Source: Bacteroidota bacterium (GTDB lineage Bacteria; Bacteroidota; Ignavibacteria; Kryptoniales; JAKASW01). Taken from it: a stretch of DNA of 64,000 bases. Position 1 is the stretch's first letter. Every line of letters starts with the position of its first letter. The position numbers and the translations under genes are program-made. The notes below the pieces were generated by a model. That model made no database searches and was not told where the DNA came from. It was given only the letters and a program-made list of their open reading frames with translations. Positions 15,684 to 62,696 of the stretch are shown here, in pieces. The DNA is taken from the NCBI GenBank assembly GCA_021825585.1, contig JAKAGT010000003.1:186001-250000 (forward strand), written 5' to 3'.

Positions 15684-17206
15684 ATGAAAGCACATTTGAT
15701 ACGATTGGCAGTTAGATGCTCGCTAGTGTTGCTCGCGGTGGTCGGCTTTTCTTATCCCGGCTATTCCCAGGAAGTGTGGTATTACCAGCATGCTATCGGT
15801 TTTCCTTCTGCGGACTCTGCCCACGTCAGGCCTTACGGAATAACCGTCGATTCAAATGGAAACGTCTGGGTAATTTCGTCTACAGCGACTGATACCGCGG
15901 CTCATAATTCGGTCTGGAAGGCGGGTCCTTCGGACACTGTTTTCAGCAAGGTCGTGGATTTCGGGAGTTATTACGACCCATCATCAAGTTCCTACTTTGA
16001 CAAGAACGTTGGGACACTCGATGGAATCTCTGCAGTCGGACAGGACATATATTTGAGCGGAAATCAGCCGTTCCAATTGACCACGCCGAACACGCTGTCA
16101 TTCTTGTACATCTTAAGAAACGGCAGCGTGAGCGATTCGCTTCACCTCGGGTTCGGAATGCGTGGGAGCGGATTCGGGACCTATATCAATTGTTTGGAAG
16201 TGTCCGGTGATTCAATCGGGTTTGCCGCTTGTCCCTACGATCCCAACCATGTCGGGCCATCGTGGCGGGCGTACAATCTGACAAGCGGTTCAATTGTCGC
16301 GTACGACAAAGCCGGAACGGAATCGACGAGACCCTTCGGCGCTTATCTTTTTGGCGACCCCTCATACCAGTATTCTGCCTACTACTCACCTGCCCCCGGG
16401 GGGCCCATGGATGCGAGTGCCAGCGATGAGATTCGTGGTCTCGCTCTTGTTCCGGGTATGGATTACGCCGACAGTGCAAGTGCCATAAGCAACTCTTACT
16501 TCTACACGTCCAGAAGCAGCAGCCCCACGGATCCGACCTCGGGGGAATTGCGATCTGGAGGGGCGGATACGACAGGCAGCCTTCTCTATATACGGCGAAG
16601 CAAGTGACAGATATATCGAGCGACCTGTCGTTGGGCACCTACACTTATTACGGTATTGCCGCGGACTCCGCAGGAGACCTGTTCGTCTGCAGGCCTGATT
16701 CCGGTTATGAATGGGTGAAAATATTTAGAGTGGTTGGGACATTTGCGACTGAGATCGGTCACCTTCCCAGTAGGACCGATCCGAACAACCCAGACCCTGC
16801 CGGCGCACCTTTTCAGGGGCCGACCGCCGTTTCGCTGTCGCCCGACGGACATACCGCATACGTGGCCGACCGGGTTGCCCGAAAGGTGTTCATGTTCATG
16901 ACGTCTGTGACGAAAATTGACGAAAGAGTGCCTCCGCATCCATATCAATTTGCCTTAAAGCAAAACTACCCCAATCCGTTCAACCCTACTACCATCATAT
17001 CCTACGGGCTTGAGAAAGCCGGAAATGTCAACCTCGATGTGTACAACATACTTGGTGAGAAGGTCGCTGCTCTTGTGGACGGTTTCCAATCCGCGGGAGT
17101 CCACTCCGTTACATTTGACGGGTCAAGACTCCCGTCCGGAATATATTTCTATACTCTTCAAAACGGGGACAACAAGACAACAAAGAAAATGATTCTGATG
17201 AAATAA
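15684..17206 (+). pseudogene. secreted beta-propeller-like protein with T9SS domain, interrupted by a -1 frameshift
   Basis: Frame 1 (15684-16607) has a signal peptide (to YPGYSQ) and propeller-like strands (YGITVDSNGNVWVIS) as in the 9230 paralogue. Frame 2 (read from about 16546 to 17206) carries the rest (YYGIAADSAGDLFVCR, then NYPNPFNPTT and the sorting domain). At a run of five G (16541-16545), one additional G would give SGGIAIWRGG and join the frames, matching GGIAAWTGG in the paralogue. This is either a real single-base deletion, a slippery homopolymer or a sequencing error. Restored length about 507 aa. It follows the ROK repressor by 20 nt, presumably in its operon. Confidence 0.8.
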
Positions 17207-18725: not shown

Positions 18726-20231
18726 GTGTCCACGTTGATTGTTGCCGCTCTAATCTTGCTCCTCTTTGTTGCCGCCGCCTCCCTTATGTTTCTACGAAAG
18801 TTGCCGGCTATAGTAGCCCTGCCGCTCCTCGCGCTTGGCATTGGCGTGGTAGAGTTGGTGGCCGGGCATCTGTCGCTAAATGAATTCTTCATGGTAATAG
18901 TGGCTAACGGCGCCGAAAGACTGGTCGAACCGATTATCATCATAATATTCGGAGGTACGATTAGCGTTGTCCTGCAAAAGTCAGGCGTAGCAGAGAATCT
19001 TGTGAAGATTGGAGCGGAGCTTGCAGGTTCGAGCCCGTTGGCAGTGTCTCTGGTTGTGCTGGCCGTTGTAGGACTCCTTTTCACTACAATAACGGGATTG
19101 GGTGCAGTGATCATGATAGCTACGGTCGTATTGCCGATCCTTGCTTCGGTCGGGGTCCGTGAAGAAGTTGCAGGCGGGATTCTCCTGTTTGGCATAAGTC
19201 TCGGCGGACTGTTGAACGTGAACAATTGGGCGGTCTACAAGACTGTTCTGACGATCGGCCCCACGACAATTTCGAGCTACGCGTTAATCCTTTTCCTGGT
19301 ACAAATCCCCATAGCCGTGATTTTCATTATCGCTGAATTGTGGCGTACCAGATCGATTCGGCTGGGCTGGTCCAAGATTCTGAAGTTCACGGCCTTTGTT
19401 GCCGGAGCGGCTCTGTTCTGTATCCTCGGTTACTTCATGCTGCGTGACCTGAACTTTGCCCCGATATGGAGGGTAATCCAGGAGGTCGTTGCCTTAATCG
19501 GCTTAGCTTTGCTTCTCTTCGTCTCATATGACCGGATTTCGGCGATAAGAAACGGGACAGCTAAGGATGTTAAATGGTACAGTTACCTGATTCCGTTGGT
19601 CCCGCTTGTCCTGATACTTGTTTTCAACGTTGAATACATTGCTGCGTTTCTGCTCGGCTTTTTGTACAGCATACTGGTGACTCTTAAGCCCGGGAGTGTG
19701 CAGCTGACAACCCGATCTCTCATAGAAGGAGTCGAGGACGTCGCACCCGTTATCGTAATCATCATAGAAATCGGGATGCTTTTAAGCTCTATACTGGGTC
19801 CATCATCAAGCGGCCCGGGCAGCGGGCTGTTCACGAATTCTCTGGCCGGACACGGACACATATGGCCTGTCTTGACGGACATGCGTCCATTCTTCCGACT
19901 CGTGATTCCGCACTCCTTCTGGGAATATACGTTAGGGTTCGGCATCCTTGCGCCTCTGGCGCTTTACCGCGGCCCGATGAACGTCTGGGGTCTCGGCTAT
20001 GGAGTCGCAGGAATTCTTCTGTCGACAGGACAGCTTGGTGCCACGGCGATAATGGGAATCCTGATGTCGATGAGTATCGTGCAGGGAATATCCGATCCTA
20101 CGAATACACAGAATGTCTGGCTCGCAAACGAATTGAGAGTCGACGTGAATGGTCTAATGTGGCGAACTCTTCCATACGCATGGGCCACTGCCGTAATCGG
20201 GCTTGTCATAGCCGGGCTGAGGTTTTTCTAG
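18726..20231 (+). CDS. polytopic membrane transporter, ion-transporter-superfamily-like
   Basis: 501 aa with about 12 hydrophobic segments starting at residue 3, and a pseudo-symmetric arrangement with loops such as TTITGLGAVIMIATVVLP and GATAIMGILMSMSIVQGISDP. This resembles GntP/CitMHS/DctM-type secondary carriers of small organic acids. GTG 18726 is the annotated start; TTG 18735 has better spacing to AAGGGG and is possible. The TAG overlaps the GTG of the next gene by one base, so translation is coupled. Substrate is not evident; the context points to an acid or cyclic amide used by the neighbouring hydantoinase and oxidoreductase. Confidence 0.75.
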   Translation: MSTLIVAALILLLFVAAASLMFLRKLPAIVALPLLALGIGVVELVAGHLSLNEFFMVIVANGAERLVEPIIIIIFGGTISVVLQKSGVAENLVKIGAELAGSSPLAVSLVVLAVVGLLFTTITGLGAVIMIATVVLPILASVGVREEVAGGILLFGISLGGLLNVNNWAVYKTVLTIGPTTISSYALILFLVQIPIAVIFIIAELWRTRSIRLGWSKILKFTAFVAGAALFCILGYFMLRDLNFAPIWRVIQEVVALIGLALLLFVSYDRISAIRNGTAKDVKWYSYLIPLVPLVLILVFNVEYIAAFLLGFLYSILVTLKPGSVQLTTRSLIEGVEDVAPVIVIIIEIGMLLSSILGPSSSGPGSGLFTNSLAGHGHIWPVLTDMRPFFRLVIPHSFWEYTLGFGILAPLALYRGPMNVWGLGYGVAGILLSTGQLGATAIMGILMSMSIVQGISDPTNTQNVWLANELRVDVNGLMWRTLPYAWATAVIGLVIAGLRFF

Positions 20232-22411
20232 TGAATTATGATAGCGTGAATGGAAAAAGGAAAATAAAGGTCGGCATAGACGTTGGAGGGACGTTCACTC
20301 ATGCGGTGGCTGTTGACGCCTTCTCTTCGGAGTTGATGGGTAAAGCCATGGTGCCGACCACGCACTCTGCAAAAGAAGGTGTGGCGCTTGGAGTGGTTCA
20401 ATCGTTGCAAAAGCTCGTCGAGTCCATCGGAATTTCCCCTGATGAAGTCGCGCTGATAGCACACAGCACCACCCAGGCGACAAATGCGCTTCTCGAAGGC
20501 GACGTCGCAACCGTAGGGATCCTCGGGATGGGCAAAGGGGCTATGAAATTCCGCGTGAAGTCTCAAGAGAACGTAAGAGCCATTGAACTGGCCCCTCACA
20601 AGTTCCTGAGAGCTCATTTTGTCTTCATTGATACGAGCGATGCCGTGAAGGAGGAGGCTGTCGCGGCTGCTCTGGACCAGCTCAGATCTGCGGGGGCCGA
20701 GATCTTCGTGACAACTGAAGCGTTCGGGGTGGATGATCCTTCCAACGAAGAGGGTGCGGCCGGTATTGTCAAGAAGTTGGGATATCATTCCACCGTCGCG
20801 TCCGAGATATCTCATCTGTACGGGCTCAGGGTGCGCACTCAAACGGCCGCAATAAATGCCAGCATGGTACCGAAGATGCTTGAGGCCGCCGATATGACCG
20901 AGGCATCCGTGAAGTCCAGCGGAATTGCCAGCCCGTTGATGATTATGCGAAGCGACGGTGGAGTCATGAGCATCGGCGAAATGCGCAAACGGCCCATACT
21001 CACGATGCTTTCCGGCCCCGCTGCCGGAGTCGCCGCTGCTTTGATGTACATCCATATCTTCGACGGTATTTTTATCGAAGTCGGCGGGACTTCATCGGAC
21101 ATTTCGATCATACGCCGGGGACGTCCGGTCCTGAAGACGGCCGAGATTGGCGGACGAAGACTTTTCCTGCGAACGCTGGATGTTCGGACGGTGGGTGTCG
21201 CCGGTGGATCTATGGTCAGGATATCGAAGGGAAGAGTGATTGATGTCGGCCCCAGGAGCGCACATATTGCCGGACTAAAATATGTCTCGTTCTCAAACCC
21301 GGAAGAGTTCACGGACCCGCAGGTCCATCTGATTAGGCCGACAAGTTCCGATCCGGACGATTATTGTGCCATATCTGCCAGGCAGGGTGATGAGCCCAGG
21401 TACGCATTGACTGCCACCGACGCCGCTAACTACCTGGGTCTGATAACCGGTGAGTACGGCAGGGGAAATCCTGAGAGTGTGCGAAAGGTATTTGAGGCGA
21501 TTTCCACATTCTACAAGACTGATGCACGCCGATTCGCTCGCGAAATCCTGGAAAAAGCGACAGAGAAAATAGTCCGCGTGGTCGACTCATTTGTCGATGA
21601 GTACAAACTGGACGCGTCGCTCCTGCAACTTGTAGGCGGCGGAGGAGCGGCCGAAGTGATCGTCCCGTTTACTGCCGACCGAATGAAAGTGAGTCATACC
21701 ATCTCTAAAAACCCGGAAGTTATCTCGGCAATCGGGGTAGCGCTGGGACTTATTAGAGAGACTGTAGAGCGAAACATCATTCAGCCTACCGAACAGGATA
21801 TTCTTAAGGCCCGGCAGGAAGCGCTGGACGGCGTACTGAGAATGGGGGCGTCCCATGATTCAGCGGAGGTCCATGTGGAAATCGACCAACGGACAAAAAA
21901 AGTAATCGCGACAGCGTATGGAACGCCTGAGCTGAGGACGAGAGACCTGTCGGTGGGCATCTTGCCGGAGGACCAGCTCAGAGAGATTGCGAAGCAGGGC
22001 CTGCAGGCGTCTCAAGACTCGGTAAAAACAGTCGGGGAGACGAAACATCTTTACGTTTTTCAAGCTACCAGGTTTAAGAAATCATTCTTCGGTTTGAGGC
22101 GGCGTGCCTCACATCCCGTCGCTGTAATCGATAGAAGCGGTGTTGTCAAGTTGACGTTGGGAAGAGGCGAGGCAGTCGTTACGGACGCAGGTTCAGTTTT
22201 TGACGTGCTGCCGAAGGTCCTGGATGAAAAATCATTGTACGGCGACGCGGGTCTGTTGGTGCCCGACGTCTTCGCCGTTATGGGAGCCAAGGTCGTTGAC
22301 CTGTCGGGCCTGGCCGGCGTGAACCAGATCATGGCAGTCTGCCGGATCGAGCTTCAACAAGTTCCAACTACTGAAACTGTAATAGTGATCACTACTGAGA
22401 AACAAATCTGA
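20231..22411 (+). CDS. hydantoinase/oxoprolinase family protein (HyuA-like)
   Basis: 726 aa from GTG 20231, which overlaps the preceding stop (TAGTG); a longer upstream frame only shadows the transporter gene. The N-terminal ATPase fold reads KVGIDVGGTFTHAV, and AHSTTQATNALLEGD is the hallmark of Hydant_A_N. The Hydantoinase_A part follows with RSDGGVMS, MLSGPAAGVAAA and EVGGTSSDIS, and LVGGGGAAEVIVPF near residue 465. Known members hydrolyse 5-oxoproline, hydantoins or acetone with ATP. The B subunit (HyuB) usually found with HyuA is not next to it, so this is a stand-alone A-type protein. It lies between the transporter and the DUF4855-ROK gene. Confidence 0.87.
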   Translation: MNYDSVNGKRKIKVGIDVGGTFTHAVAVDAFSSELMGKAMVPTTHSAKEGVALGVVQSLQKLVESIGISPDEVALIAHSTTQATNALLEGDVATVGILGMGKGAMKFRVKSQENVRAIELAPHKFLRAHFVFIDTSDAVKEEAVAAALDQLRSAGAEIFVTTEAFGVDDPSNEEGAAGIVKKLGYHSTVASEISHLYGLRVRTQTAAINASMVPKMLEAADMTEASVKSSGIASPLMIMRSDGGVMSIGEMRKRPILTMLSGPAAGVAAALMYIHIFDGIFIEVGGTSSDISIIRRGRPVLKTAEIGGRRLFLRTLDVRTVGVAGGSMVRISKGRVIDVGPRSAHIAGLKYVSFSNPEEFTDPQVHLIRPTSSDPDDYCAISARQGDEPRYALTATDAANYLGLITGEYGRGNPESVRKVFEAISTFYKTDARRFAREILEKATEKIVRVVDSFVDEYKLDASLLQLVGGGGAAEVIVPFTADRMKVSHTISKNPEVISAIGVALGLIRETVERNIIQPTEQDILKARQEALDGVLRMGASHDSAEVHVEIDQRTKKVIATAYGTPELRTRDLSVGILPEDQLREIAKQGLQASQDSVKTVGETKHLYVFQATRFKKSFFGLRRRASHPVAVIDRSGVVKLTLGRGEAVVTDAGSVFDVLPKVLDEKSLYGDAGLLVPDVFAVMGAKVVDLSGLAGVNQIMAVCRIELQQVPTTETVIVITTEKQI

Positions 22412-22437: not shown

Positions 22438-24549
22438 ATGCCGTATTCAAAGCAAGACTTAATAGAATTTAATCACCTTAGACATCTGGTACTTCTTTAT
22501 GGCGATAGTAAAAGACCCTGGACCAATGAACAGCTCAAATACTATGCAGCCCACCTGGGGTCGGATGGGAAAGCGGATGACTGGTTCTTCGATTCATTCT
22601 TATTCATAAATCCGAAATCAAGATCGGGAAGAGACTACGTCGCGGATGTAAATCTGGGAAAATCGATGTCAGGTGAAGGTGACTTTTTCACCGTTTGCTC
22701 TCCAAATCCAGCTGACAAAGGGGATTGGGAGGAACTGCTGCAGTTTTATTTTGGCAAAGAAGGAGCATTGCATGCTCTTGACAATACGATAGAAGATCTA
22801 TCCGGGAGCGTTGCGGCCCCTGAGCATCGCAGGAACGTGGTCCTTACGCTTCCGTATCCCCACATTACTCAAAAGAGGTTCGGTGAAATCGGGCATACGG
22901 GAGGTGATCTCAATTTTTCCATCGAGACGCAAAATCTCTCTGTCGCTACAGAGTCGCGTCTCAAGGCAGAAATGTGGTTTATCGACAGGATCATGGAAAT
23001 GTGGGAGAAAGCCCATCTGAAGAACATTAACCTTCTCGGCGTCTACTGGATATTTGAGACCGTGTACAGGTCATGGGAAGTCGATGATCATCTACTGTTG
23101 AAGGAACTCCGGAAACACGTGAACTCCCGGGGGCTTAAATTCCTGTGGATCCCGTTCTACGCCACTTATAATTTCCATTTGCTGGAAGACTACAAGAAAT
23201 ATTATTTCGACCTTGCATTCCTTCAGCCCAATTTCCTTTTTTACAAGGATGGAAAAGACATTGAGACTGCTTCTGCCGTGGCGAGGAAGTGTGATGCAGG
23301 AATCGAGATGGAGTATTACCTGGAGTTGGATGAGCCGATATCGATTAAAAACGAAAGGCACATTCGGTTCAGGGAATACCTCAATGCCGGAGTGAAATAC
23401 GGTTACATGACCGAATCTGTTTGCGCACACTTCCAGGGGAGCGACTCGTTAGAGAGGATGTATTCCCACGGTGAGCCGATTGAACGCGAATTGTACGGGG
23501 ACATATACCGGTTCGTTAAAGGCGATTACAAGATTAAACCTTATCCCCCTGCGCCCTCACGGTCCAACTTTGTTCCCAGAAGGCGTGCGGTAATCTCTTT
23601 GGATCTCGGCGGCACGAATCTTAGAATGGCGGTGGTAGATGATGCGGGAAAAATCGTGCACTGGAGACACGGGAAGACTCCAGCGAGCAGACAGGGAATT
23701 CTCGACACGATCACCGATAAAGTCAGCGAAGGAATAAAGCTTGCCGAGTCGGAGGGCCTGAAGCTGACCGGCATCGGGATGAGCACAGGAGGGAGAGTCA
23801 ATTTTGAAAACGGGATAATAGAGGACTCGACTTCGTTGATTCCGGACTGGAAGAATGTCCGCATAAAGCAAGCCCTCGAAGAACGCTTCAATATTCCCGC
23901 AGTTATTGACAATGACGGCAATTGCTCGGCGCTGGCCGAGAAGATCTTTGGGAAGGCAAAATCGGTCGACAACTTCATAGCAATTGTCCTGGGCACGGGA
24001 ATCGGCGGCGGAATCTACGTCGACGGGAAACTGCTTAGAGGAAGAAGCAACTATACATCTGAGATAGGGCACATCACGGTCGATGCCGGAGGACCCAAAT
24101 GCTCTTGTGGCGGCTACGGATGCGTCGAGTTGTATTCTTCCGGATCCGGTCTTGTCAGATGGGCAGAAGAGGATTCTTCCCTGACGACCATCGTCGGAAC
24201 AAGCGGGGACCGTTCCACAAAAGCGATAGCTGAGTCTGCCCGTGCAGGTAACGCGGATGCCGTCGAATTACTCAAGCGAGGGGGCGAAAGGCTGGGAGCA
24301 GCTACGGCTGGATTGGTGAACATCTTCAACCCGTCCATGATAATATTTTCCGGCAGTCTGGTAAATGTGGGAAATCAGTATTTCGATGCTTTTAGAGAGA
24401 CACTGTTCCAACGTGCCATGAAGCCTACGTCAGATTCCGTAGAGATAGTATTTTCGGACTTTCCACAGGAGGTCGGCATCATGGGTGCTGCTGCGCTTGC
24501 GTTTCAGAGTTCGCTGCAGGGCTCTTCCTATTCGATGAATATTGAATAG
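22438..24549 (+). CDS. cytoplasmic fusion of DUF4855 domain and ROK-family sugar kinase
   Basis: 703 aa without signal peptide. Residues about 15-365 are homologous to the DUF4855 domains of the secreted proteins at 41593, 55748 and 61014, sharing LxGxYWxxE (LLGVYWIFE, E207), LQPNF and GIExE (E290, E292), and a terminal FVKGDY. Residues about 380-700 are a complete ROK kinase: DLGGTNLRMAV (ATP loop, about 387), DNDGN (catalytic Asp region, about 492), GTGIGGGIYVDG, and the zinc motif CSCGGYGCVE (about 556-565). The next gene encodes ManNAc-6-P epimerase, so the kinase may be a ManNAc kinase. A DUF4855-kinase fusion would couple hydrolysis with phosphorylation. Both halves seem intact. Confidence 0.9.
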   Translation: MPYSKQDLIEFNHLRHLVLLYGDSKRPWTNEQLKYYAAHLGSDGKADDWFFDSFLFINPKSRSGRDYVADVNLGKSMSGEGDFFTVCSPNPADKGDWEELLQFYFGKEGALHALDNTIEDLSGSVAAPEHRRNVVLTLPYPHITQKRFGEIGHTGGDLNFSIETQNLSVATESRLKAEMWFIDRIMEMWEKAHLKNINLLGVYWIFETVYRSWEVDDHLLLKELRKHVNSRGLKFLWIPFYATYNFHLLEDYKKYYFDLAFLQPNFLFYKDGKDIETASAVARKCDAGIEMEYYLELDEPISIKNERHIRFREYLNAGVKYGYMTESVCAHFQGSDSLERMYSHGEPIERELYGDIYRFVKGDYKIKPYPPAPSRSNFVPRRRAVISLDLGGTNLRMAVVDDAGKIVHWRHGKTPASRQGILDTITDKVSEGIKLAESEGLKLTGIGMSTGGRVNFENGIIEDSTSLIPDWKNVRIKQALEERFNIPAVIDNDGNCSALAEKIFGKAKSVDNFIAIVLGTGIGGGIYVDGKLLRGRSNYTSEIGHITVDAGGPKCSCGGYGCVELYSSGSGLVRWAEEDSSLTTIVGTSGDRSTKAIAESARAGNADAVELLKRGGERLGAATAGLVNIFNPSMIIFSGSLVNVGNQYFDAFRETLFQRAMKPTSDSVEIVFSDFPQEVGIMGAAALAFQSSLQGSSYSMNIE

Positions 24550-24614: not shown

Positions 24615-25310
24615 GTGAATAAGCTTCACCGAGGATTAATAGTTTCTTGCCAGGCAGAGGAGGGCAGCCCTTTCAATGCCCCGCAATTCATAGCGGCTTT
24701 CGCCAAAGCCGCAGAACTGGGTGGCGCAGTCGGAGTCAGAGTCAGAGACCCGGAAAACGTAGCTGCGGTAAAGAAGATGACTGAACTTCCCGTAATTGGA
24801 CTCACGAAAGGTTACTACGAATCGGGGAAGGTACTTATTACGCCGACCATGGACGACGTACTGAGGCTGGTTAAGTCCGGCGCGGACATCGTTGCCGTGG
24901 ATGCGACCGCTCGCATCAGGCCAAACGGCATGTCCGGGATTGATTTCCTCAGGTTCGTGAAGTCTGACATCGATGTTCCCGTGCTGGCAGATATCTCCAC
25001 TCTCGATGAAGCGCTCGCCGCCGTTAGCGCGGGCACGGATTTCGTCGCCACAACACTGTCGGGATATACCGAGGGTAGTACCTCAACTGATGACACTCCT
25101 GATTTTGACCTTATCCAGAATATCTCTTCAAGAGTGGATACCCCGGTTATCGCCGAGGGAAGGATTTGGACTCCCGAGCAGGCGAGAATGGCAGTCGAAT
25201 GCGGCGCATTTGCCGTCTGTGTAGGTACTGCTATAACCAGACCCGTCACTATCGTAGAGAAATTTGCCTCTCCACTTCTCGCCGGAATTTCCGTCGGCAG
25301 GAAGAAATGA
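24615..25310 (+). CDS. nanE: N-acetylmannosamine-6-phosphate 2-epimerase
   Basis: 231 aa TIM barrel converting ManNAc-6-P to GlcNAc-6-P in the cytoplasm. GTG 24615 has GAAGGGAG upstream. Family motifs: GLIVSCQAEEGSPF at the N-terminus, VGVRVRDPENV, PVIGLTKGYY, DIVAVDATAR, VLADIS, and VIAEGRIWTPEQA with the catalytic Lys/Glu region arranged as in NanE. The length matches the family (220-235 aa). It directly follows the DUF4855-ROK kinase, the usual NanK-NanE order, and precedes a DUF5009 membrane protein. No NanA lyase is in the window, so the ManNAc may come from a polymer rather than from sialic acid. Confidence 0.92.
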   Translation: MNKLHRGLIVSCQAEEGSPFNAPQFIAAFAKAAELGGAVGVRVRDPENVAAVKKMTELPVIGLTKGYYESGKVLITPTMDDVLRLVKSGADIVAVDATARIRPNGMSGIDFLRFVKSDIDVPVLADISTLDEALAAVSAGTDFVATTLSGYTEGSTSTDDTPDFDLIQNISSRVDTPVIAEGRIWTPEQARMAVECGAFAVCVGTAITRPVTIVEKFASPLLAGISVGRKK

Positions 25311-25380
25311 CGCATAGATTCTCTGAAGTACTTCTTGGGCATAGCTGTTATGCGATTTACATAGCGATAAGGAGAATTTG

Positions 25381-26817
25381 ATGTCACAGGGTATTGAATC
25401 GTCCCCGGTTCGGCAGCAAAGAGCGGCGGCACTTGATGCTTTGCGCGGTCTCTCTATCTTGTTAATGCTTTTTGCTTCAAGTATCCCGTTCGGAGTGCTT
25501 CCCTCATGGATGTACCACGCTCAGGAACCGCCGCCTACGCATATTTTCAATGCCAATTTGCCGGGGATTACATGGGTTGATCTCGTTTTCCCGTTCTTCC
25601 TTTTCACAATGGGTGCGGCTATTCCGCTCGCACTTTCCAGGCGACTCAAGGACGGGATATCGCCCTGGCGTGTTCTTCCGGCGGTCATCTGGAGGTGGAT
25701 ACTCCTCGTGGGATTTGCACTCTATGTATCGCAAATCAGGCCGCAGGTAATCAGCAACAATCCCGACTGGAGGGTCTGGCTCCTCGCTTTGCTTGGGTTT
25801 GCCCTGTTGTTTCCGATTCTGGCTAAGTTGCCGGGCAGCTGGTCGACAACCACGAAATATTCCGTTCGAGCGGTGGGATGGGTGGGAGCCGTGCTCTTGA
25901 TGGTGTTCCTGCGGTTCCCCGATGGCACGGGGTTCTCCCTTTATCGAAGCGACATAATCATTCTTGTCCTTGCCAACGTGGCGCTATTCGGTGGTGTGAT
26001 CTGGCTTTTCACCCGCGAGCGGCTGTTTGTTCGTCTGGGTATAATGGGACTGCTGGTAGCAATGCGTCTATCGGCACATACGCCCGGCTGGATCCAGGTC
26101 TTCTGGAATTATTCTCCGATTTCCTGGGCATATCAATTCAGATTTTTGCAGTACCTGCTTATTGCATTTCCCGGCACGATAGTGGGGGACATGATGATCA
26201 AATGGATGGGCCAAACCGCTGGTGCGTCGGTTTCAGAACCGAGATGGAACGGTTCTAAACTGGCTTCAATAGCCTTCCTGATGATAGCAGTCAATGCGGC
26301 GGTCGTGATCGGTCTAAAGGCGCAGTGGGTGTTGGGAACCTTGATAGTTACCGTTGTGCTCTGTGCGGCGGGGTGGATGCTTGTGGACGGACCAGGCTCA
26401 TCTACTGAAAATCTGATACGAAGGTTTTACCGGTGGGGAGTCTACTGGCTTTTCCTCGGATTGCTTTTCGAGCCGTATGAGGGTGGCATCAAGAAAGATC
26501 CGGCAACGCTGAGCTATTATTTCGTGACGAGCGGACTGGCCATCTTCGTCTTGATTGCACTGATGATATCTCTGGACATACTTAAGCAGAGGAAGGGATT
26601 TCAATTTCTTATCGATAGCGGACAGAATCCAATGATAGCGTATGCCGGTATAAACAGCCTGATATTGCCTTTACTGGCAATCACCAGGCTGGATGTTCTT
26701 TTGCAGATACTTACTCCGACTCCATGGCTTGGAGTGTTGCGCGGGGCATTTGTCACTTACCTGATCGCATTGGCGACCACGTTGTTTACGAGAAAGAAGG
26801 TGTTCTTGAGGACTTAA
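25381..26817 (+). CDS. DUF5009 / heparan-alpha-glucosaminide N-acetyltransferase-like membrane protein
   Basis: 478 aa, about 10-11 transmembrane segments. ATG 25381 has AAGGAG 8 nt upstream. The opening ALDALRGLSILLMLF, SWMYHAQEPPPTHIF, ITWVDLVFPFFLFTMGAAIPL is diagnostic of the COG4299/DUF5009 group, relatives of human HGSNAT. These enzymes transfer acetyl from cytoplasmic acetyl-CoA to terminal glucosamine across the membrane. In this cluster, acetylation of glucosamine ends during uptake of an amino-sugar glycan is a reasonable inference but not shown. It follows nanE by 70 nt. Confidence 0.85.
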   Translation: MSQGIESSPVRQQRAAALDALRGLSILLMLFASSIPFGVLPSWMYHAQEPPPTHIFNANLPGITWVDLVFPFFLFTMGAAIPLALSRRLKDGISPWRVLPAVIWRWILLVGFALYVSQIRPQVISNNPDWRVWLLALLGFALLFPILAKLPGSWSTTTKYSVRAVGWVGAVLLMVFLRFPDGTGFSLYRSDIIILVLANVALFGGVIWLFTRERLFVRLGIMGLLVAMRLSAHTPGWIQVFWNYSPISWAYQFRFLQYLLIAFPGTIVGDMMIKWMGQTAGASVSEPRWNGSKLASIAFLMIAVNAAVVIGLKAQWVLGTLIVTVVLCAAGWMLVDGPGSSTENLIRRFYRWGVYWLFLGLLFEPYEGGIKKDPATLSYYFVTSGLAIFVLIALMISLDILKQRKGFQFLIDSGQNPMIAYAGINSLILPLLAITRLDVLLQILTPTPWLGVLRGAFVTYLIALATTLFTRKKVFLRT

Positions 26818-31421: not shown

Positions 31422-32354
31422 TTGAAGAATGAGATACTGATCGGGGTGGATTTCGGCGGGACAAAAATTCTCGCGGGGGGAATGACGGAAAAGGGTGAGA
31501 TCGTTTGTGAACCTGTCAAGATGCCTACAAACGGACAGGAATCCGGCGAGAAGATCATTGCAAGACTTACAAACTCAATCGATGAAGTGATCAGAAGATC
31601 TGAAGTTCGCATCGACCAAGTGAAGGGAATCGGACTTGGAGTTACAGGGCCTCTCGACATAAAGAACGGTACGATTCTGGAGTGCCCACAGCTTCCCACG
31701 TTGCGGTTTTTTCCGTTGAAAAAGGCTGTCGAGAATTATTTCCATCGTCCCGTTTACATGGACAATGACGCAAATTGTCTTATATACGGAGAGACACTCT
31801 TCGGAAGCGGTGTCGGGAAAATGAATGTCGTGGGGTTCACCCTTGGCACGGGTTTAGGATGTGCGATTATTCTGGATGGGAAGATTTTCGTCGGCTCGAC
31901 CGAATCCGCGGGTGAGATATGGCCATCGCCATACGGAGATGGAACAATTGAGGATCTGGTCTGTGGTGCCGGCGTTTCGAAAATCTACAGGCGGATTTCG
32001 GGGAAGGAAAGGTCCGCCGTTGACATCGCGTCATTGGCCGAAAAAGGTGAAGAGAACGCATTGGCCACCTGGAGTGAGTTTGGCAAGCATTTGTCGGTAG
32101 CCATGGCATGGACAATAAACGTGATCGATCCCGACATCGTGATACTTGGCGGGTCGATATCAAATGCATATCCGTATTTCTCGTCCTCAATGGAAGAAAA
32201 TCTTCGAAAATACATTTGTCCCGTTCCGTCTGAACGTACCAGAGTCGTTTGTTCAAAATTAGGCGCAAATGCCGGTTTCATTGGAGCGGCGGCGCTGGCC
32301 ATGCGACAGGAAGAGAGTCGAACTCAAGAGAATTTTAATGAGGAATCATTATGA
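31422..32354 (+). CDS. ROK-family sugar kinase-like protein
   Basis: 310 aa; TTG 31422 has GAGGAGG 6-7 nt upstream. ROK fold: GVDFGGTKILAGG (about 8-20), GLGVTGPLD, DNDANC with the catalytic Asp near 114, GTGLGCAIILDG, INVIDPDIVILGGS. The zinc-binding Cys-x-Cys-Gly motif of classical ROK kinases is missing (EIWPSPYGDGTIEDLVCGAG in its place), as in some active ROK kinases of deep branches, so activity is plausible but unproven. No DNA-binding domain, so it is an enzyme rather than a regulator. Its TGA overlaps the GH2 ATG (ATGA). Confidence 0.83.
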   Translation: MKNEILIGVDFGGTKILAGGMTEKGEIVCEPVKMPTNGQESGEKIIARLTNSIDEVIRRSEVRIDQVKGIGLGVTGPLDIKNGTILECPQLPTLRFFPLKKAVENYFHRPVYMDNDANCLIYGETLFGSGVGKMNVVGFTLGTGLGCAIILDGKIFVGSTESAGEIWPSPYGDGTIEDLVCGAGVSKIYRRISGKERSAVDIASLAEKGEENALATWSEFGKHLSVAMAWTINVIDPDIVILGGSISNAYPYFSSSMEENLRKYICPVPSERTRVVCSKLGANAGFIGAAALAMRQEESRTQENFNEESL

Positions 32355-41592: not shown

Positions 41593-43575
41593 ATGAAAAG
41601 TCTTCAGTCCCCGAAAAGTGTCCGTTTACTTATAGTCCTGATGCTCGGCCTTGTGTGTGATGTATACGCGTGGACACCTGCACCCGCGCCCCCATCCGGT
41701 ATGACGAACCTTTCGAAGGGAAAGCCCTATACCATAAGCCAGCTTGTGTCCACTCAGTATACATACGCTTCGAGTGAATCTTCGTATTACCTGAAAGGCG
41801 CTCTGACAGACGGATACATAGGCTCGTCGGGTACATTTGCTGACGGACAATGGCAGGGGTATCTCCACGGCGGGGCGAGGACAGTGATTATTGACATGGG
41901 CCAAGTGAACACCGTGGAACAAATACAGGAGAAGTTCATCCATGACCCATCAGCCGGTATATGGTTCCCAAGGCATGTCACGTACGCTCTGTCCTTGAAC
42001 GACACGGATTGGGCTAATGTTGGAACAGTAAACTCATCAATTCCTCTGACTACAACTTCGGTTGAAGTACAGTCCTATGCAGTTTCCGGATTCAATTATG
42101 AGGCGAGATATGTCAAGATGACGTTTCCCGTTGACGTGTGGGTCTTTGCAGATGAGTTCCAGGTGTTTGGACAGCTGGGTGTGCTCGATAGTGCCACGAT
42201 ACCCCCCATCACTCCTCCAACAACCTATCCGAATGCGTATTGTCCTCCAGGTTCGCCGTCGGTTGGGGGGACAAAGAACATGGTGCTCATTTATAACGGA
42301 TATTACGCTTCTCAACCGTCGCTGGCAGACAATACAGTTGATGACTTAACACCTTACGTTGGCTATGAGAGCACGGCAGGCAAGATAACGGACTTCATGT
42401 TTGATGGCTTTCTGTTTCTTCCTTATGTCGCGGGTGCACCTTCGGGCGGAATTTACTACTGCGACACTGCCCATCCTACAGTCGAATCAGATTGGGTATA
42501 TTATCTCGACAACACCTTTGATCCTACATACAACCTCTCTGCTTTGAACGTTGCGGTGGGCAACGTCAAGAAAGCACTCAGTGACTCCTCCTACCAGGCG
42601 AAAGTCGAAATTGCAATCCCTTACCCGACTCCTACCGCCACAAATTTCGGCGTCATTGGAGGTGATTCGATAAACTTGACGTACCTCCCGGATAGGGAGA
42701 AGGTTATTAAATGGTACATCGATCAGGTGATAGCCAGATGGGATACGGCGGCCTATAGTAATCTCGATCTCGTTGGATTTTATTGGTACCAGGAGGGCGC
42801 GGAGTTTGAGGTCAACGACAGTGAAACGGAGATGCTGCAATATGCGGGCAACTATGTGAGAAGTCTTGGAAAGGTTCTTGACTGGATACCGTCATATCAG
42901 GCTTCCGGGTTTGCCGACTGGGACTCTCTCGGTTTTGATGCAGCCATAATGCAACCAAACTATGCGTTCAATAATTGGCCGGAAGGAGAGCTTGGCGAGG
43001 CAGCAGATGCGATTAAGAAACTCGGTATGGGCATCGAGATCGAAATACACTGGGACGCACTCTCCAGCTCGCAGTACAGGGACAAGTATTATGCTTACCT
43101 GAATTATGGTGCAACGAAAGGCTACATGACCGGCGCAGTCCATATGTATTATCAGAACGGAGGTCCCGGCACTTTCTATGACTGTGCTGTAAGCTCAGAT
43201 CCTGCACTTAGAAATATCTACGATCAGACTTACGATTTTATAAAAGGGACTTATATACCGACAAGTGTTGAGGGAGAGGGGGCACTCCCCAGGGGGTTTC
43301 GGCTGTTTCAGAATTATCCGAATCCGTTTAACCCGACTACAAAAATTCAATACTCCTTATCGACACCAGGCATGGTATCATTGAAGATTTACGATACACT
43401 GGGCCAGCGCGTTAAAGAACTGACAAACCAATACGAAACACCGGGTAGCTATGTCGTTAACTTCAATGCTTCAAATCTTGCCAGCGGTGTTTACTTCTAC
43501 CGCTTGTCAGTCACTGTCGGTTCGAAACAGGGGAGCAATTACTCCATCACCAGGAAGATGATGTTTCTCAAATAA
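41593..43575 (+). CDS. secreted DUF4855 protein with F5/8C-like N-terminal domain and T9SS sorting domain (copy A)
   Basis: 660 aa, signal peptide to about residue 26. Residues about 35-195 form a discoidin/F5-8C-like carbohydrate-binding module (NLSKGKPYT, ALTDGY, VIIDMGQVNTVEQIQE, RYVKMTF, ADEFQVFG). Residues about 225-555 are DUF4855: MVLIYNGYY, DFMFDGFLF, VEIAIPYP, LVGFYWYQE (E401), MQPNYAF, MGIEIEIHW (E482, E484), YYQNGGPGTFYDCA. The repeated strands and paired glutamates look like a TIM-barrel hydrolase. The sorting domain runs from about 570. It is homologous to the N-terminal half of the kinase fusion at 22438. Confidence 0.9.
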   Translation: MKSLQSPKSVRLLIVLMLGLVCDVYAWTPAPAPPSGMTNLSKGKPYTISQLVSTQYTYASSESSYYLKGALTDGYIGSSGTFADGQWQGYLHGGARTVIIDMGQVNTVEQIQEKFIHDPSAGIWFPRHVTYALSLNDTDWANVGTVNSSIPLTTTSVEVQSYAVSGFNYEARYVKMTFPVDVWVFADEFQVFGQLGVLDSATIPPITPPTTYPNAYCPPGSPSVGGTKNMVLIYNGYYASQPSLADNTVDDLTPYVGYESTAGKITDFMFDGFLFLPYVAGAPSGGIYYCDTAHPTVESDWVYYLDNTFDPTYNLSALNVAVGNVKKALSDSSYQAKVEIAIPYPTPTATNFGVIGGDSINLTYLPDREKVIKWYIDQVIARWDTAAYSNLDLVGFYWYQEGAEFEVNDSETEMLQYAGNYVRSLGKVLDWIPSYQASGFADWDSLGFDAAIMQPNYAFNNWPEGELGEAADAIKKLGMGIEIEIHWDALSSSQYRDKYYAYLNYGATKGYMTGAVHMYYQNGGPGTFYDCAVSSDPALRNIYDQTYDFIKGTYIPTSVEGEGALPRGFRLFQNYPNPFNPTTKIQYSLSTPGMVSLKIYDTLGQRVKELTNQYETPGSYVVNFNASNLASGVYFYRLSVTVGSKQGSNYSITRKMMFLK

Positions 43576-43616: not shown

Positions 43617-44411
43617 ATGAGACGGATGAAGGCGGTCCGGGGAGGTTGTCAGAGATTAGAGATAATCGTCAATGAACATCTTTGCAGGATTACTTTGGTC
43701 AGAATAGCTATTACAAGGATTAAGTTCCTATTGCCTTTGATTTCATTCTTCATGTCAACAGGTACAGTGGCATTGGCTGGGGTATCGTCAGGCGGTAGGA
43801 CCATCATTCTAAGAAACAATTGGATAATCCAATCGTCCGAAGCCGTGAGAAAGGGAGGTAAGGTCATATCGGCAAACAATTTCAGGCCCCGTGGTTGGTA
43901 CAGAGCAAGTGTGCCTTCGACCATACTGGGTTCCCTGGTTTCGGATGGGGTATTCGAGAACCCCTTTCAGGGATTGGACCTTGAAGGAATTCCGGACTCT
44001 CTATTCGTTGAGCCATGGCGGTACAGGACAACGTTCGAGTTGCCCGCGGAGGCGAAAAACGCCAGTCACGTCACTTTGAAGTTCCTCGGCGTCAACTATA
44101 AAGCCGAGGTCTGGCTCAACGGCAGGCTCATCGCAAGCAGCGATTCTGTCCTCGGCGGGTTCCGCATGGCCTATATGTCAGTGAAAAGCCGGCCCCAAAA
44201 TCATCTTCTTCGGGATCCTGATCTCACGAAGGGCGTCATAAGCAAATCCGGTGAATTCACGGTTCTTCCGACCTTTTGGGACGATAATTATATTTCATTT
44301 CTGCCCAGAGGGATAAGGAGCATCACGGGACACTTTGATGCCCAGGACCTAAAAGGCGGATCTCCGCAGTTCGAAGTGTCCGGATGGAATGTCGAGAAGA
44401 GGAAATATTGA
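43617..44411 (+). pseudogene. GH2 gene remnant with central catalytic region deleted
   Basis: The frame keeps the N-terminal GH2 sugar-binding domain (RGWYRASVPSTILGSLVSDGV, PWRYRTTFELP, VNYKAEVWLNGRLIASS). Near 44180 it passes directly into the last approximately 60 residues of a GH2 protein (SVK, then VLPTFWDDNYISFLPRG, which matches VLPTFWSDNFIWLFPGE of the intact gene at 32351). About 690 residues, including the Ig-like domain and the whole TIM barrel, are missing. No convincing start or ribosome site was found; the beginning of the frame is arbitrary. Confidence 0.88.
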
Positions 44412-44442: not shown

Positions 44443-44993
44443 ATGAGACTCTTGCGGAGAACATTCGGAGCTAATATTATGAAATGGGTGTGCATTGCGG
44501 TAGTGTCTATTGCTCCTGAAGTGGTTGCCGAAGCTGGAGGCTCTGCACCGGTTCCTCCTCCAGGGATGGTCGACCTCTCACGAGGCAAGTCGTACGTTGT
44601 CACTCAATCATTTCCCACGGAATATTCTTTCGCGCCTCTCGAAGCAAAGTTCTATGTGAAGGGATCTCTTACTGAAGTTGGCTGCGGCAGGAGCTTGGCG
44701 AAGCCGCCGGTATTTGTAAGAAGCTCGGCATGGGAATCGAGATTGAAATTCACTGGAATGCACTCACCGATTCAGCTTTGAGATCCAAGTACTATGCATA
44801 TCTGGAGGACGGTGTGACCAAAGGGTATATGGCAGGTGCTGCACATTCATACTGGCAAAATTCGGGTCCCGGCACTTTTTACCAAAGCTGCATGAGCAGA
44901 GATCCGGCCATCCGCGAAATCTATGAGCGCACTTACGCGTTTATCAAGGGAACATATAATCTTACAGCAAGGAGATCCTATCGTGAAAAGTAA
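44443..44993 (+). pseudogene. DUF4855 gene remnant with central deletion and frameshift
   Basis: The first frame (44443-44781) has a signal peptide and the start of the F5/8C-like domain (MVDLSRGKSYVVTQSFPTEY, EAKFYVKGSLT). At about 44670-44690 the sequence jumps to the C-terminal part of DUF4855 in another frame (QELGEAAGICKKLGMGIEIE, then YYAYLEDGVTKGYMAGAAHS and FIKGTYN). About 400 residues are lost compared with 61014. The end overlaps the Shine-Dalgarno and start of the next gene. Confidence 0.87.
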
Positions 44994-55747: not shown

Positions 55748-57712
55748 ATGAATAAGTCATCGAGAATTTTGAAAATAGCGGTCTTACTTGGAGTGGCGGT
55801 TGTCATGACAGCCCACGCATATGCCGGCACACCTGCCCCTCCTCCTCCGCAGGGCATGGTCAATCTCGTACAGGGAAGGTCATATACCATAACCCCGCTT
55901 GTCTCGATACAATACTCATTCGCATCCGGCGAAGCCAACTACTACACGCCGGGAGCCCTCACCGACGGGCAAATTGCTTCTTCAGTCGCCTACAGTGACC
56001 CTGCATGGCAGGGGTATACCCGCGGCGGAGCGCGAAGCGTCGTTATCGATATGGGGCAGGTAAACACCGTGCACCAGATGCAGGAAAGATTTCTGCACTA
56101 TCCTTCGGCCGGGATATACTTTCCGAGAACTGTCACTTATTCACTGTCTATGAACGATACCGACTGGTCCATTGTGGGGATAGTAAGCTCATCCATTCCT
56201 CTGACCACTACCACGAATGAGACACAGACTTATACGGTATCAGGACTCGACTATCAGGCGAGATATGTGAAGATGACTTTCACGGTGGACGTAAACGTAT
56301 TCGCCGACGAGTTTCAGGTGTTCGGCGACTCAGGTGTCGTCGACAACGCAACGGTTCCAAAGATTACACCTCCGGTTACCTATCCGAACGCGTACCTTGC
56401 ACCCGGCTCTCCACAGGTCGGCGGAATCAGGGACATGGTTCTCATTCCGAACGGCTACTATGCCGCGAATCCCGCAATTGAAAACAATACAGTATCCCAG
56501 CTGATCCCTTACGTCGGCTACCAATCGGTCTCCGGTGCAATAACTGATTTCATGTTCGATGCAGTCCTGTTTACTCCGTACGGAGGCGCGCCCTCGGGCG
56601 GAAATTACGGCGATAACCTCTCTACCCCAACCAACCTGTCCGACTGGGAGTATTACCTCGACAATACATTCTCGCCGACTTATAACCTCGCCGCACTGGA
56701 TAGCGCCACAGCGATTGTCAAAAAGGATTTGAACGACCCCGGTTACAAAGAGAAAGTGGAAATCGCCATACCTTACCCGAGTCCCGCTGAAACCAATTTC
56801 GGCACCATCAACGGAGTCCAGGAAAACCTTTCGAATCTCAGCGCCCAGGAGCAGGTCCTATCATGGTACGTCGATCAGGTGTTGAGCAGGTGGGATTCGG
56901 CGGGCTACGCCAACCTGGATCTGGCCGGATTTTACTGGTACAGCGAGAGCGCGGGCTTCACGGTCAACGACAGCGAAACAGCTATGCTGAATTTCATAGC
57001 CAACTATATCGTAGGCAAGGGCAAGGTGCTGGATTGGATTCCCTTCAAGGATGCAAGCGGGTTTGCGGATTGGAGCACACTTGGATTTGACGGAGCTTGG
57101 ATGCAGCCGAACTATTCGTTCAGCAATTATCCGCCACAGGAACTGGCCGAGACGGCGGATGCGTGCAAGAAGCTCGGAATGGGTATCGAAATTGAGATTC
57201 ACTGGAATGCGCTCACAGATTCCACGCTCAGGGATAAATATTATGCGTATCTCGATTACGGCGTTACAAAGGGGTACATGACCGGAGCCAGTCACGCCTA
57301 TTATCAGAATTCAGGACCGGGTACTTTCTATACATGTGCCGAGAGTACGAACCCGACACTTCGTGCAATCTACGATGCGACGTATCAATTCATAAAGGGA
57401 ACTTACCAGGTACCGACGGCCGTGGAAGAAATTCCCGGTACACTCCCTGAAAAGTTCAACCTGAGTAACAACTATCCTAATCCATTTAACCCTACTACCA
57501 CGATAAGAGTAACCCTCGGTCGAAGCGGCATGATGAGTCTTAGAGTATATAATGTACTGGGACAACTGGTTAAGGTGGTGGACGAGGGGTACAAAGCGCC
57601 GGGAGTCTACACTTACGACGTGAACATGGACAATATGGCGAGCGGAGTTTACTTCTATCGTTTGCAGCAAGGAAACAATTTCATGACCAAAAAGATGCTT
57701 CTCCTCAAGTGA
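55748..57712 (+). CDS. secreted DUF4855 protein with F5/8C-like domain and T9SS sorting domain (copy B)
   Basis: 654 aa, same plan as copy A: signal peptide, F5/8C-like module (about 35-195; VIDMGQVNTVHQMQERF), DUF4855 (about 225-555) with LAGFYWYSE (E400), MQPNYSF, MGIEIEIHW and YYQNSGPGTFYTCA, then the sorting domain from about 568. All conserved acidic residues of the family in this window are present. The gene ends at the boundary with the group II intron remnant: GTGCC directly follows the stop codon. Confidence 0.9.
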   Translation: MNKSSRILKIAVLLGVAVVMTAHAYAGTPAPPPPQGMVNLVQGRSYTITPLVSIQYSFASGEANYYTPGALTDGQIASSVAYSDPAWQGYTRGGARSVVIDMGQVNTVHQMQERFLHYPSAGIYFPRTVTYSLSMNDTDWSIVGIVSSSIPLTTTTNETQTYTVSGLDYQARYVKMTFTVDVNVFADEFQVFGDSGVVDNATVPKITPPVTYPNAYLAPGSPQVGGIRDMVLIPNGYYAANPAIENNTVSQLIPYVGYQSVSGAITDFMFDAVLFTPYGGAPSGGNYGDNLSTPTNLSDWEYYLDNTFSPTYNLAALDSATAIVKKDLNDPGYKEKVEIAIPYPSPAETNFGTINGVQENLSNLSAQEQVLSWYVDQVLSRWDSAGYANLDLAGFYWYSESAGFTVNDSETAMLNFIANYIVGKGKVLDWIPFKDASGFADWSTLGFDGAWMQPNYSFSNYPPQELAETADACKKLGMGIEIEIHWNALTDSTLRDKYYAYLDYGVTKGYMTGASHAYYQNSGPGTFYTCAESTNPTLRAIYDATYQFIKGTYQVPTAVEEIPGTLPEKFNLSNNYPNPFNPTTTIRVTLGRSGMMSLRVYNVLGQLVKVVDEGYKAPGVYTYDVNMDNMASGVYFYRLQQGNNFMTKKMLLLK

Positions 57713-61013: not shown

Positions 61014-62696
61014 ATGAAGAAATTCCTGACGCTCTTTTCGTTTCTTAGCATCCTTGCGGCATCGTTGACTATTGCCGCGTTGCCGGCGTTTGCTTCGGAG
61101 CCAGCCCCAGCTCCTCCGAAAGGAATGGTGGACCTTATTCTTGGTAAGTCATATACTGCCATACCTCTTGTCCCGATAAAGTACTCCTTCGCGCCGATGG
61201 AAGCCGGACATCAGATTCCGGGATCTCTCACCGACGGGAGAATCGCTTCGTCGACAAATTTCAACGATCGCGAATGGCAGTGGTATATTCGCGGGGGATC
61301 ACGAAGTATAGTCATTGACATGGGAAGCGTAAACACCGTACGCCAGATGCAGGAGCGTTTTCTCCATGATCCTCCGGAAGGAATATATTTTCCGAGAAAG
61401 GTTCGTTATGCTCTTTCTATGGATGGGAAGCACTGGGCGGATGTAGGGACGGTAAGATCGGCTATATCGCTGACCAGGACAACTCCCGACGTTCAAACCT
61501 ATGCTTTGAGGGGACTCAATTACCGCGCTCGGTATGTTAAGATTATATTCACGGTAGACGTGTTCGCGCTTGCGGATGAGTTCCAGGTATTCGGCAACCG
61601 AGGGATAGTGGATCATGCTACTTTCCCGAAGATTACCCCACCGCCTGTTTATCCGGACGCCTACTGCCCGCCGGGGTCACCGGAAGTGGGAGGAACCAGG
61701 AACATGGTTCTCATAGCGAACGGGTATTACAAGAAAGACCCTGCCATAGAGAAAAACAGTGTCGATCAACTCCTGCCATATGTCGGCTACATGACTCCTT
61801 CCGGCAAGATAACGGACTTCATGTTCGACAGTTTCCTCTTTTCAGCTTTTGGCGGCGCTCCATCGGGCGGTCAATATGGAGCAGACATCAAGAAGCCGAC
61901 TGTAGAGTCCGACTGGGTGTATTACATCAATAACACGTTCATCCCGGATTACAATCTGTCGGCTCTTGACATCGCAACAGGAAAGGTGAAGAAGATACTT
62001 GGTAAACCCTCGTACAAATCAAAAGTTGAAATCGCCATCCCGTATCCTACGCCGAGCGCGACACAGTTCGGAAACATTGATGGTGCGCCTGCAAACCTTT
62101 CATACCTTTCCGACCGGGAAAGAGTGGTTAGATGGTATGTTGATAAGGTGTTGAAGAAGTGGAAAGCGGCCCACTTCAGGAACCTGAAGCTTGTAGGATT
62201 CTACTGGATCAGCGAAAAGGCCGCTTACTCTATAGATGATAGTGAGACGGCAATGCTGCGATATGTCGGTCACTATGTGAGAAGCGTAGGGAAGGTGCTC
62301 GACTGGATTCCGTTCATCAACGCAGAAGGTTTCACCGAATGGCATTCTCTCGGATTCGACGGGGCCGAAATGCAGCCCAATTATTCATTCCATAACTTTC
62401 CGCCACAGGAGCTCGGCGAAGCTGCCGATGCGTGTAAGAAACTCGGAATGGGCATAGAGATCGAGATACATTGGGACGCGCTCAAGGTCGATAGTCTCAG
62501 GGAAAAATATTATCAATACCTGAACTGGGGTATAAAAAAAGGTTATATGACAGGAGCTGCTCATTCATATTATCAGAATGCCGGACCAGGGACTTTTTAC
62601 CAGTGCTGCTACAGCAAGAACCCGAAGTTCAGGGAGATTTACGATAAGACTTATGATTTCATCAAAGGAACATATACACCAACGAATGTTAAATAA
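61014..62696 (+). CDS. secreted DUF4855 protein with F5/8C-like domain, no sorting domain (copy C)
   Basis: 560 aa, signal peptide to about residue 28. F5/8C-like module about 35-200 (MVDLILGKSYT, VIDMGSVNTVRQMQERFLHD, RYVKIIFTVDVFALADEFQ), DUF4855 about 220-555 with LVGFYWISE (E401), MQPNYSF, MGIEIEIHW, YYQNAGPGTFYQCC and FIKGTYTPTNVK at the end. Unlike copies A and B, the protein stops at the domain end, so it is probably periplasmic or outer-membrane rather than type IX-exported. It is the closest intact relative of the remnant at 44443. A DUF6259-like gene follows. Confidence 0.9.
   Translation: MKKFLTLFSFLSILAASLTIAALPAFASEPAPAPPKGMVDLILGKSYTAIPLVPIKYSFAPMEAGHQIPGSLTDGRIASSTNFNDREWQWYIRGGSRSIVIDMGSVNTVRQMQERFLHDPPEGIYFPRKVRYALSMDGKHWADVGTVRSAISLTRTTPDVQTYALRGLNYRARYVKIIFTVDVFALADEFQVFGNRGIVDHATFPKITPPPVYPDAYCPPGSPEVGGTRNMVLIANGYYKKDPAIEKNSVDQLLPYVGYMTPSGKITDFMFDSFLFSAFGGAPSGGQYGADIKKPTVESDWVYYINNTFIPDYNLSALDIATGKVKKILGKPSYKSKVEIAIPYPTPSATQFGNIDGAPANLSYLSDRERVVRWYVDKVLKKWKAAHFRNLKLVGFYWISEKAAYSIDDSETAMLRYVGHYVRSVGKVLDWIPFINAEGFTEWHSLGFDGAEMQPNYSFHNFPPQELGEAADACKKLGMGIEIEIHWDALKVDSLREKYYQYLNWGIKKGYMTGAAHSYYQNAGPGTFYQCCYSKNPKFREIYDKTYDFIKGTYTPTNVK

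Follow-up and report, generated by a model that had tools for sequence, protein, structure and literature searches.

A conserved cytosolic fusion of DUF4855 with a GNE-type ROK kinase, encoded beside NanE, as a candidate enzyme for releasing and phosphorylating an amino sugar

In human GNE, a ROK-type ManNAc kinase forms the C-terminal part of the protein and sits behind an enzyme domain able to supply its substrate (PMC2742894); this N-terminal domain is a UDP-GlcNAc 2-epimerase and the protein serves sialic acid synthesis. In the bacterial NanK-NanE module, the gene of a ROK kinase adjoins that of NanE, and the inferred route leads from ManNAc via ManNAc-6-P to GlcNAc-6-P (PMC5458393). The DUF4855 family (PF16147) is represented by secreted proteins of Bacteroidota and Paenibacillus; the literature searched reported no function for it, and the family appeared there in a gene list (PMC10434189). 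In that list of iron-regulated genes of B. thetaiotaomicron (BT0438-0449), the DUF4855 gene BT0442 is flanked on one side by an alpha-N-acetylglucosaminidase (BT0438-40) and on the other by DUF5009 together with two family-10-like hydrolases (BT0446-49) (PMC10434189).

Here we analysed a 64,000-nucleotide stretch of DNA (the whole of it is called the window; its genome is G000) in which a DUF4855 domain and a ROK kinase are joined in one chain. As in GNE, the kinase is C-terminal, shares the clade and residue pattern of the human kinase and follows a domain that could supply its substrate; unlike in GNE, the N-terminal domain is a predicted glycoside-hydrolase (GH)-type barrel and the setting, with NanE, would be catabolic. 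As in the NanK-NanE module, the kinase adjoins NanE, but the genome has no recognisable NanA, and the kinase is of the GNE type and fused to DUF4855. The initial annotation knew of no described enzyme with this architecture; the literature searched likewise yielded none, nor any description of a glycosidase-ROK fusion or of an N-acetylmannosaminidase. The kinase is covalently attached and linked to NanE, and its substrate residues can be recognised; this hints with unusual directness at what a DUF4855 protein may release, and it reduces a domain of no reported function to a short list of candidate substrates.

The fusion gene (22438..24549, + strand) runs from ATG to stop as a single frame of 703 codons without internal stops. 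A Pfam search assigned residues 18-357 to DUF4855 (E 3e-66, 224 bits against a cut-off of 27, profile positions 3-312 of 313) and residues 386-689 to ROK (PF00480; E 4e-64, 217 bits against a cut-off of 22.9, profile positions 2-292 of 294), so that both profiles were covered almost completely, as expected from the original description of a DUF4855 domain followed by a complete ROK kinase with its zinc motif. The DUF4855 domain was delimited to residues 1-366 (22438..23535), the kinase domain to residues 383-693 (23584..24516) and the zinc motif CSCGGYGCVE to residues 555-564 (24100..24129), all on the + strand; between the domains lies a Pro-rich linker (residues 367-382, 23536..23583, +), which appeared as a low-pLDDT block in the models. 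The model of the full-length protein reached a pTM of 0.64, leaving the arrangement of the domains uncertain. No signal peptide was found in the fusion, in agreement with the annotation: the maximum 15-residue Kyte-Doolittle mean within the first 60 residues was 0.73, compared with 2.2-2.5 in the secreted DUF4855 paralogs of the same locus, and a profile search revealed no Por tail. The N-terminal half was 26-29% identical to these paralogs, which bears out the relationship that had been proposed.

Seven further full-length copies were detected in six related genomes. Five belong to the same genus (G002, G003, G007 with two copies, and G009), and the two others (G477, 54% identity; G258, 50% identity) represent one family each, so that three families of the class are covered by independent assemblies. 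A frameshift or assembly artefact as the source of the fusion is thereby ruled out; the architecture is real and conserved in related bacteria. For each half, dN/dS was 0.08-0.11 in the only two pairs with unsaturated dS, and purifying selection acts on both halves. Beside these full-length copies, one open reading frame of G004 (contig L085, 9804-10862) encodes a kinase without its N-terminus that continues in frame into the C-terminal 59 residues of NanE, and is apparently a deletion product of a fusion/NanE locus.

The ROK motif set, namely DxGxT, a catalytic Asp, ExGH and CxCGxxGCx(E/D) (PMC5458393), is entirely present in the fusion as DLGGT (389-393), DND (491-493), EIGH (542-545) and the zinc motif given above. 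Its best solved relatives were three entries of the human GNE ManNAc kinase (213 bits), and the next protein was a glucokinase (155 bits); identity to E. coli NanK was 27%. In a tree of 28 rows, several of them on long branches, the fusion kinases, an unfused ortholog from G658 and human GNE formed a clade (98/99). At human positions 420, 475, 477, 489 and 518 the fusion kinase and GNE share R, G, R, T and G, compared with mostly K, P, V/I, P and A in the sampled glucokinase-like ROK proteins of the class; the five residues did not occur together in ten sampled class ROK kinases or in E. coli NanK, NagK or Mak. All six residues that coordinate ManNAc in the human kinase (Arg477, Asn516, Asp517, Glu566, His569 and Glu588; PMC5458393) were identical in the window kinase by alignment. 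Among the other copies, His replaces Asn516 in G258 and Arg replaces Gly416 in G009. The kinase half is thus well supported as a GNE-type hexosamine kinase, closest to the human ManNAc kinase, with ManNAc as the predicted substrate.

The substrate stays a prediction because NCBIfam named the kinase at subfamily level only and below cut-off: the top match was the glucokinase model TIGR00744 (198 bits, cut-off 260), and the scores with the NanK equivalogs were 111 of 450 bits (NF047821) and 109 of 283 bits (NF003461), too low to class it as an E. coli-type NanK. This top match is one of the points in favour of a different reading, in which the kinase would act on GlcNAc or be a glucokinase-type ROK of broad specificity, DUF4855 would free GlcNAc, GlcN or glucose, and the link to NanE would reflect a general amino-sugar operon. 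The surroundings of the gene add to it, as GlcN/GlcNAc genes abound at the locus (GH18, exo-glucosaminidase-type GH2, a NagB-II-like SIS protein and a NagX-like DUF5009 protein), and so do the alpha-N-acetylglucosaminidase, DUF5009 and two family-10-like hydrolases near BT0442 (PMC10434189); DUF5009 and GHL10, both companions of BT0442, are also present in the window. We nevertheless consider this reading doubtful, given the GNE-type residues and clade of the kinase and the recurrence of 2-epimerases, either NanE or AGE, next to loci that otherwise differ. As a separate observation, the window encodes a second ROK kinase (31422-32354), which adjoins a SIS deaminase-like protein and GH2 and is devoid of the zinc-motif cysteines and of the ExGH histidine.

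The gene that follows the fusion (24615..25310, +) was confirmed as the ManNAc-6-P 2-epimerase NanE named by the annotation (PF04131, 187 bits; NF002231, 262 bits against a cut-off of 189). Since the kinase is of a hexosamine type nearest to the GNE ManNAc kinase, its pairing with NanE is metabolically sensible, and the opposite outcome, a kinase for a sugar unrelated to NanE, which the annotation had said would refute its reading, did not emerge from the sequence comparisons. Behind NanE lies a DUF5009 membrane protein resembling the HGSNAT/NagX acetyltransferases (25378..26817, +), in the same position as in G002, G003 and G007. NanE adjoins seven of the eight fusion loci (G000, G002, G003, both copies of G007, G477 and G258), with the qualifications that it carries a stop beside copy b of G007 and that in G258 and G477 it is convergent to the fusion and not co-transcribed. 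At the eighth locus (G009) only a NanE fragment persists, identical at 17 of 25 residues, as if the kinase, with its G416R replacement, and NanE were decaying in step. In G658 the kinase ortholog is free of DUF4855 and is again followed by NanE. The genus has a second NanE, a housekeeping one, which had no ROK neighbour of the fusion type within the short flanks examined.

A related step accompanies the unfused form. In G115, a cytosolic DUF4855 protein without kinase is followed by an AGE-type N-acylglucosamine (ManNAc/GlcNAc) 2-epimerase, which scored 412 bits with a solved N-acylglucosamine 2-epimerase and 112 bits with a cellobiose epimerase. Because NanE adjoins the fusions and AGE follows this unfused protein, HexNAc 2-epimerisation appears to accompany both forms of DUF4855 through different enzymes, AGE being a single instance. 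Sialic acid was also considered as the source of ManNAc. No NanA scored above the curated cut-off in the 10 genomes searched, where divergent lyases could score lower, and the sole NanA homolog of G000 was DapA (364 bits, over the dapA cut-off), which argues against this source and weakens it as a candidate.

To examine the N-terminal half, a structure was predicted, the annotation having stated that a fold other than that of DUF4855 would refute its proposal; the outcome was a GH-type barrel. The AlphaFold2 model of this half, built with 24 homologs, had a pLDDT of 88 and a pTM of 0.90 and contained eight strands (16-21, 53-57, 132-138, 197-204, 234-237, 259-263, 288-292 and 329-332), in line with a (beta/alpha)8 barrel. 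When it was compared with 999 PDB chains by VIA-align, the top rows (Z 13-15.6, 4 Å over about 260 residues) were nearly all GH-type barrels, including Cwp19, PgaB, GH164 beta-mannosidase, GH5, GH18 and GH113; a common fold proves no function, and many barrels tied in this comparison. Foldseek returned only barrel matches of low TM, a BFVD search nothing beyond generic barrel matches, and a PDB sequence search a single insignificant match. On the basis of these computations, a GH-type fold of the DUF4855 half is well supported.

Across 24 aligned DUF4855 domains, secreted and cytosolic, D52, E207, D258 and E292 were invariant and E290 nearly so. In the model, E207 (23056..23058, +) lies three residues past strand 4 and E292 (23311..23313, +) is the final residue of strand 7; the two would thus occupy the catalytic positions of clan GH-A, as putative acid/base and putative nucleophile. 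Glycosidases of the clan GH-A type (GH5, GH113 and GH164, and also PgaB of GH153) resemble the domain in the predicted barrel and in the carboxylates that, by the model, would end strands 4 and 7, but their identity to it is 7-12%, without a sequence relationship. The secreted PF16147 proteins match it over the whole domain and share the invariant E207 and E292, whereas the branch of the fusion is cytosolic, has no Por, SLH or F5/8 additions, forms a supported clade of its own (100/99) and carries a long insertion that separates strand 2 from strand 3. The D-E pair for substrate-assisted catalysis of the GH18/GH20 type was not seen at strand 4 of the alignment. In a beta-ManNAc glycoside the 2-acetamido group is unusable for catalysis, and a two-carboxylate mechanism is therefore needed; the layout of the putative catalytic residues is compatible with such a substrate without proving it.

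Taken together, the findings suggest that one chain unites two enzymes, the first releasing an amino sugar and the second trapping it as the phosphate. The protein would be a cytosolic bifunctional catabolic enzyme, in which the DUF4855 half may act as a clan-A-like retaining glycosidase, with E207 as acid/base and E292 as nucleophile, and hydrolyse an imported oligosaccharide or glycoside to ManNAc or a near relative among the HexNAc sugars. The GNE-type ROK half joined to it would phosphorylate the freed sugar at C6, and the neighbouring NanE would turn ManNAc-6-P into GlcNAc-6-P, which could enter central amino-sugar metabolism. The data are explained most economically by release of ManNAc and its phosphorylation by the kinase fused to DUF4855, and we regard this reading, like the whole scheme including NanE, as evenly balanced between right and wrong. 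The annotation had read the protein as a glycosidase coupled to a kinase for the liberated sugar; this reading gained a predicted GH-type barrel with invariant glutamates and a kinase of the hexosamine type, while we infer the catalysis by DUF4855, the glycan it acts on, the identity of its product with the kinase substrate and any channelling. The broader proposal, that DUF4855 constitutes a new family of glycoside hydrolases freeing ManNAc, with the cytosolic branch as a release-and-trap enzyme independent of sialic acid, is put forward more tentatively. If true, it would add a sialic-acid-independent route of ManNAc catabolism and, in the fusion of a glycosidase with a kinase, an architecture that the literature searched does not describe.

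The chief weakness of the simple ManNAc scheme is a cassette that it leaves outside. Immediately upstream of the fusion lie genes for a FAD oxidoreductase (PF12831; 17282..18670, +), a polytopic membrane protein without family match, conserved at 50-79% and probably a transporter (18726..20231, +), and a HyuA-like (hydantoinase/oxoprolinase A) protein of uncertain start (20228..22411, +). The last, recognised by profile matches, has no HyuB partner, and its best NCBIfam match, caprolactamase alpha, was far under cut-off. The three genes, the membrane protein being of about 500 residues, precede DUF4855 in G000, G007, G258 and G115, and part of the cassette does so in G003, G477 and G417, where the contigs end nearby. 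The cassette partners cytosolic DUF4855, fused or not, across families, and NanE partners the kinase half. In the distant G180, a secreted DUF4855 protein also adjoins a PF12831 protein.

This division of partners by domain would suit two unrelated operon activities carried in one chain, with the DUF4855 substrate belonging to the FAD oxidoreductase/HyuA-like pathway and not to that of the kinase; the G009 locus, where the kinase (G416R) and NanE (a remnant) look damaged and the DUF4855 half is intact, points the same way. We find it quite improbable, since the fusion, labile as it is, occurs in three families of the class, and since AGE next to the unfused form gives a similar epimerisation step.

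That lability became apparent from the distribution. Because only 11 of 391 sampled genomes of the class, besides G000, held a DUF4855 member close enough to be matched (cytosolic- or secreted-type), the family is patchy. Cytosolic DUF4855 without kinase was found on contig C25 of G000, in G115 and G417, and on two MAG contigs labelled Gloeomargarita (L034) and BRC1 (L035), which indicates that the kinase is dispensable for the function of cytosolic DUF4855. The C25 copy is 76% identical to the fused domain and, because the linker and the first kinase residues remain in the alignment, suggests a secondary loss of the kinase. On the DUF4855 tree the fusion state switches at least three times. 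A single origin without loss, with the fusions as one clade, was rejected (p-AU 1.5e-5), partly because a recent unfused paralog of the same genome nests among the fusions. The three changes, and the tracking of the cassette rather than NanE by DUF4855, could also be explained if the fused domain were no hydrolase but a sugar sensor or scaffold, serving to regulate the kinase or to keep it complexed with the HyuA-like and FAD enzymes. Such a role seems unlikely to us, as the putative catalytic carboxylates are retained in the cytosolic copies, the second copy of G007 being the sole one to miss any (E290), at a dN/dS of 0.08-0.11; a hydrolase that feeds the attached kinase remains the reading we prefer.

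Several other features of the DUF4855 loci were recorded. Profile searches identified two secreted paralogs with a Por tail (41593..43575 and 55748..57712, both +) and a third that matches F5/8 type C weakly (61014..62696, +). A DUF4855 fragment at 44688-44936 (profile positions 232-312, in an open frame of 105 codons) is the remnant of a further paralog. The 264-residue open reading frame at 43617-44411 holds an N-terminal GH2 domain and only the end of an Ig_GlcNase domain, and is apparently what an internal deletion left of an exo-glucosaminidase-type GH2. Upstream of the cassette, two overlapping frames (15684-16607 and 16604-17206) match one secreted Por-tail protein of 506-507 residues (L037 and L040), and the window gene at 15684-17206 looks split by a frameshift. 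A group II intron reverse transcriptase/maturase (57902-58966) is encoded between secreted DUF4855 genes, and in G417 a related open reading frame comes after the unfused DUF4855 gene (L084, 6559-7950). The cytosolic DUF4855 gene of the Gloeomargarita (cyanobacterium) MAG (L034:1167-2249) adjoins a seryl-tRNA synthetase gene on a contig of 4.2 kb, which is possibly mis-binned. Finally, a Paenibacillus DUF4855 protein (L036:7134-11480) was found to carry three SLH domains together with F5/8 type C and FIMAH domains.
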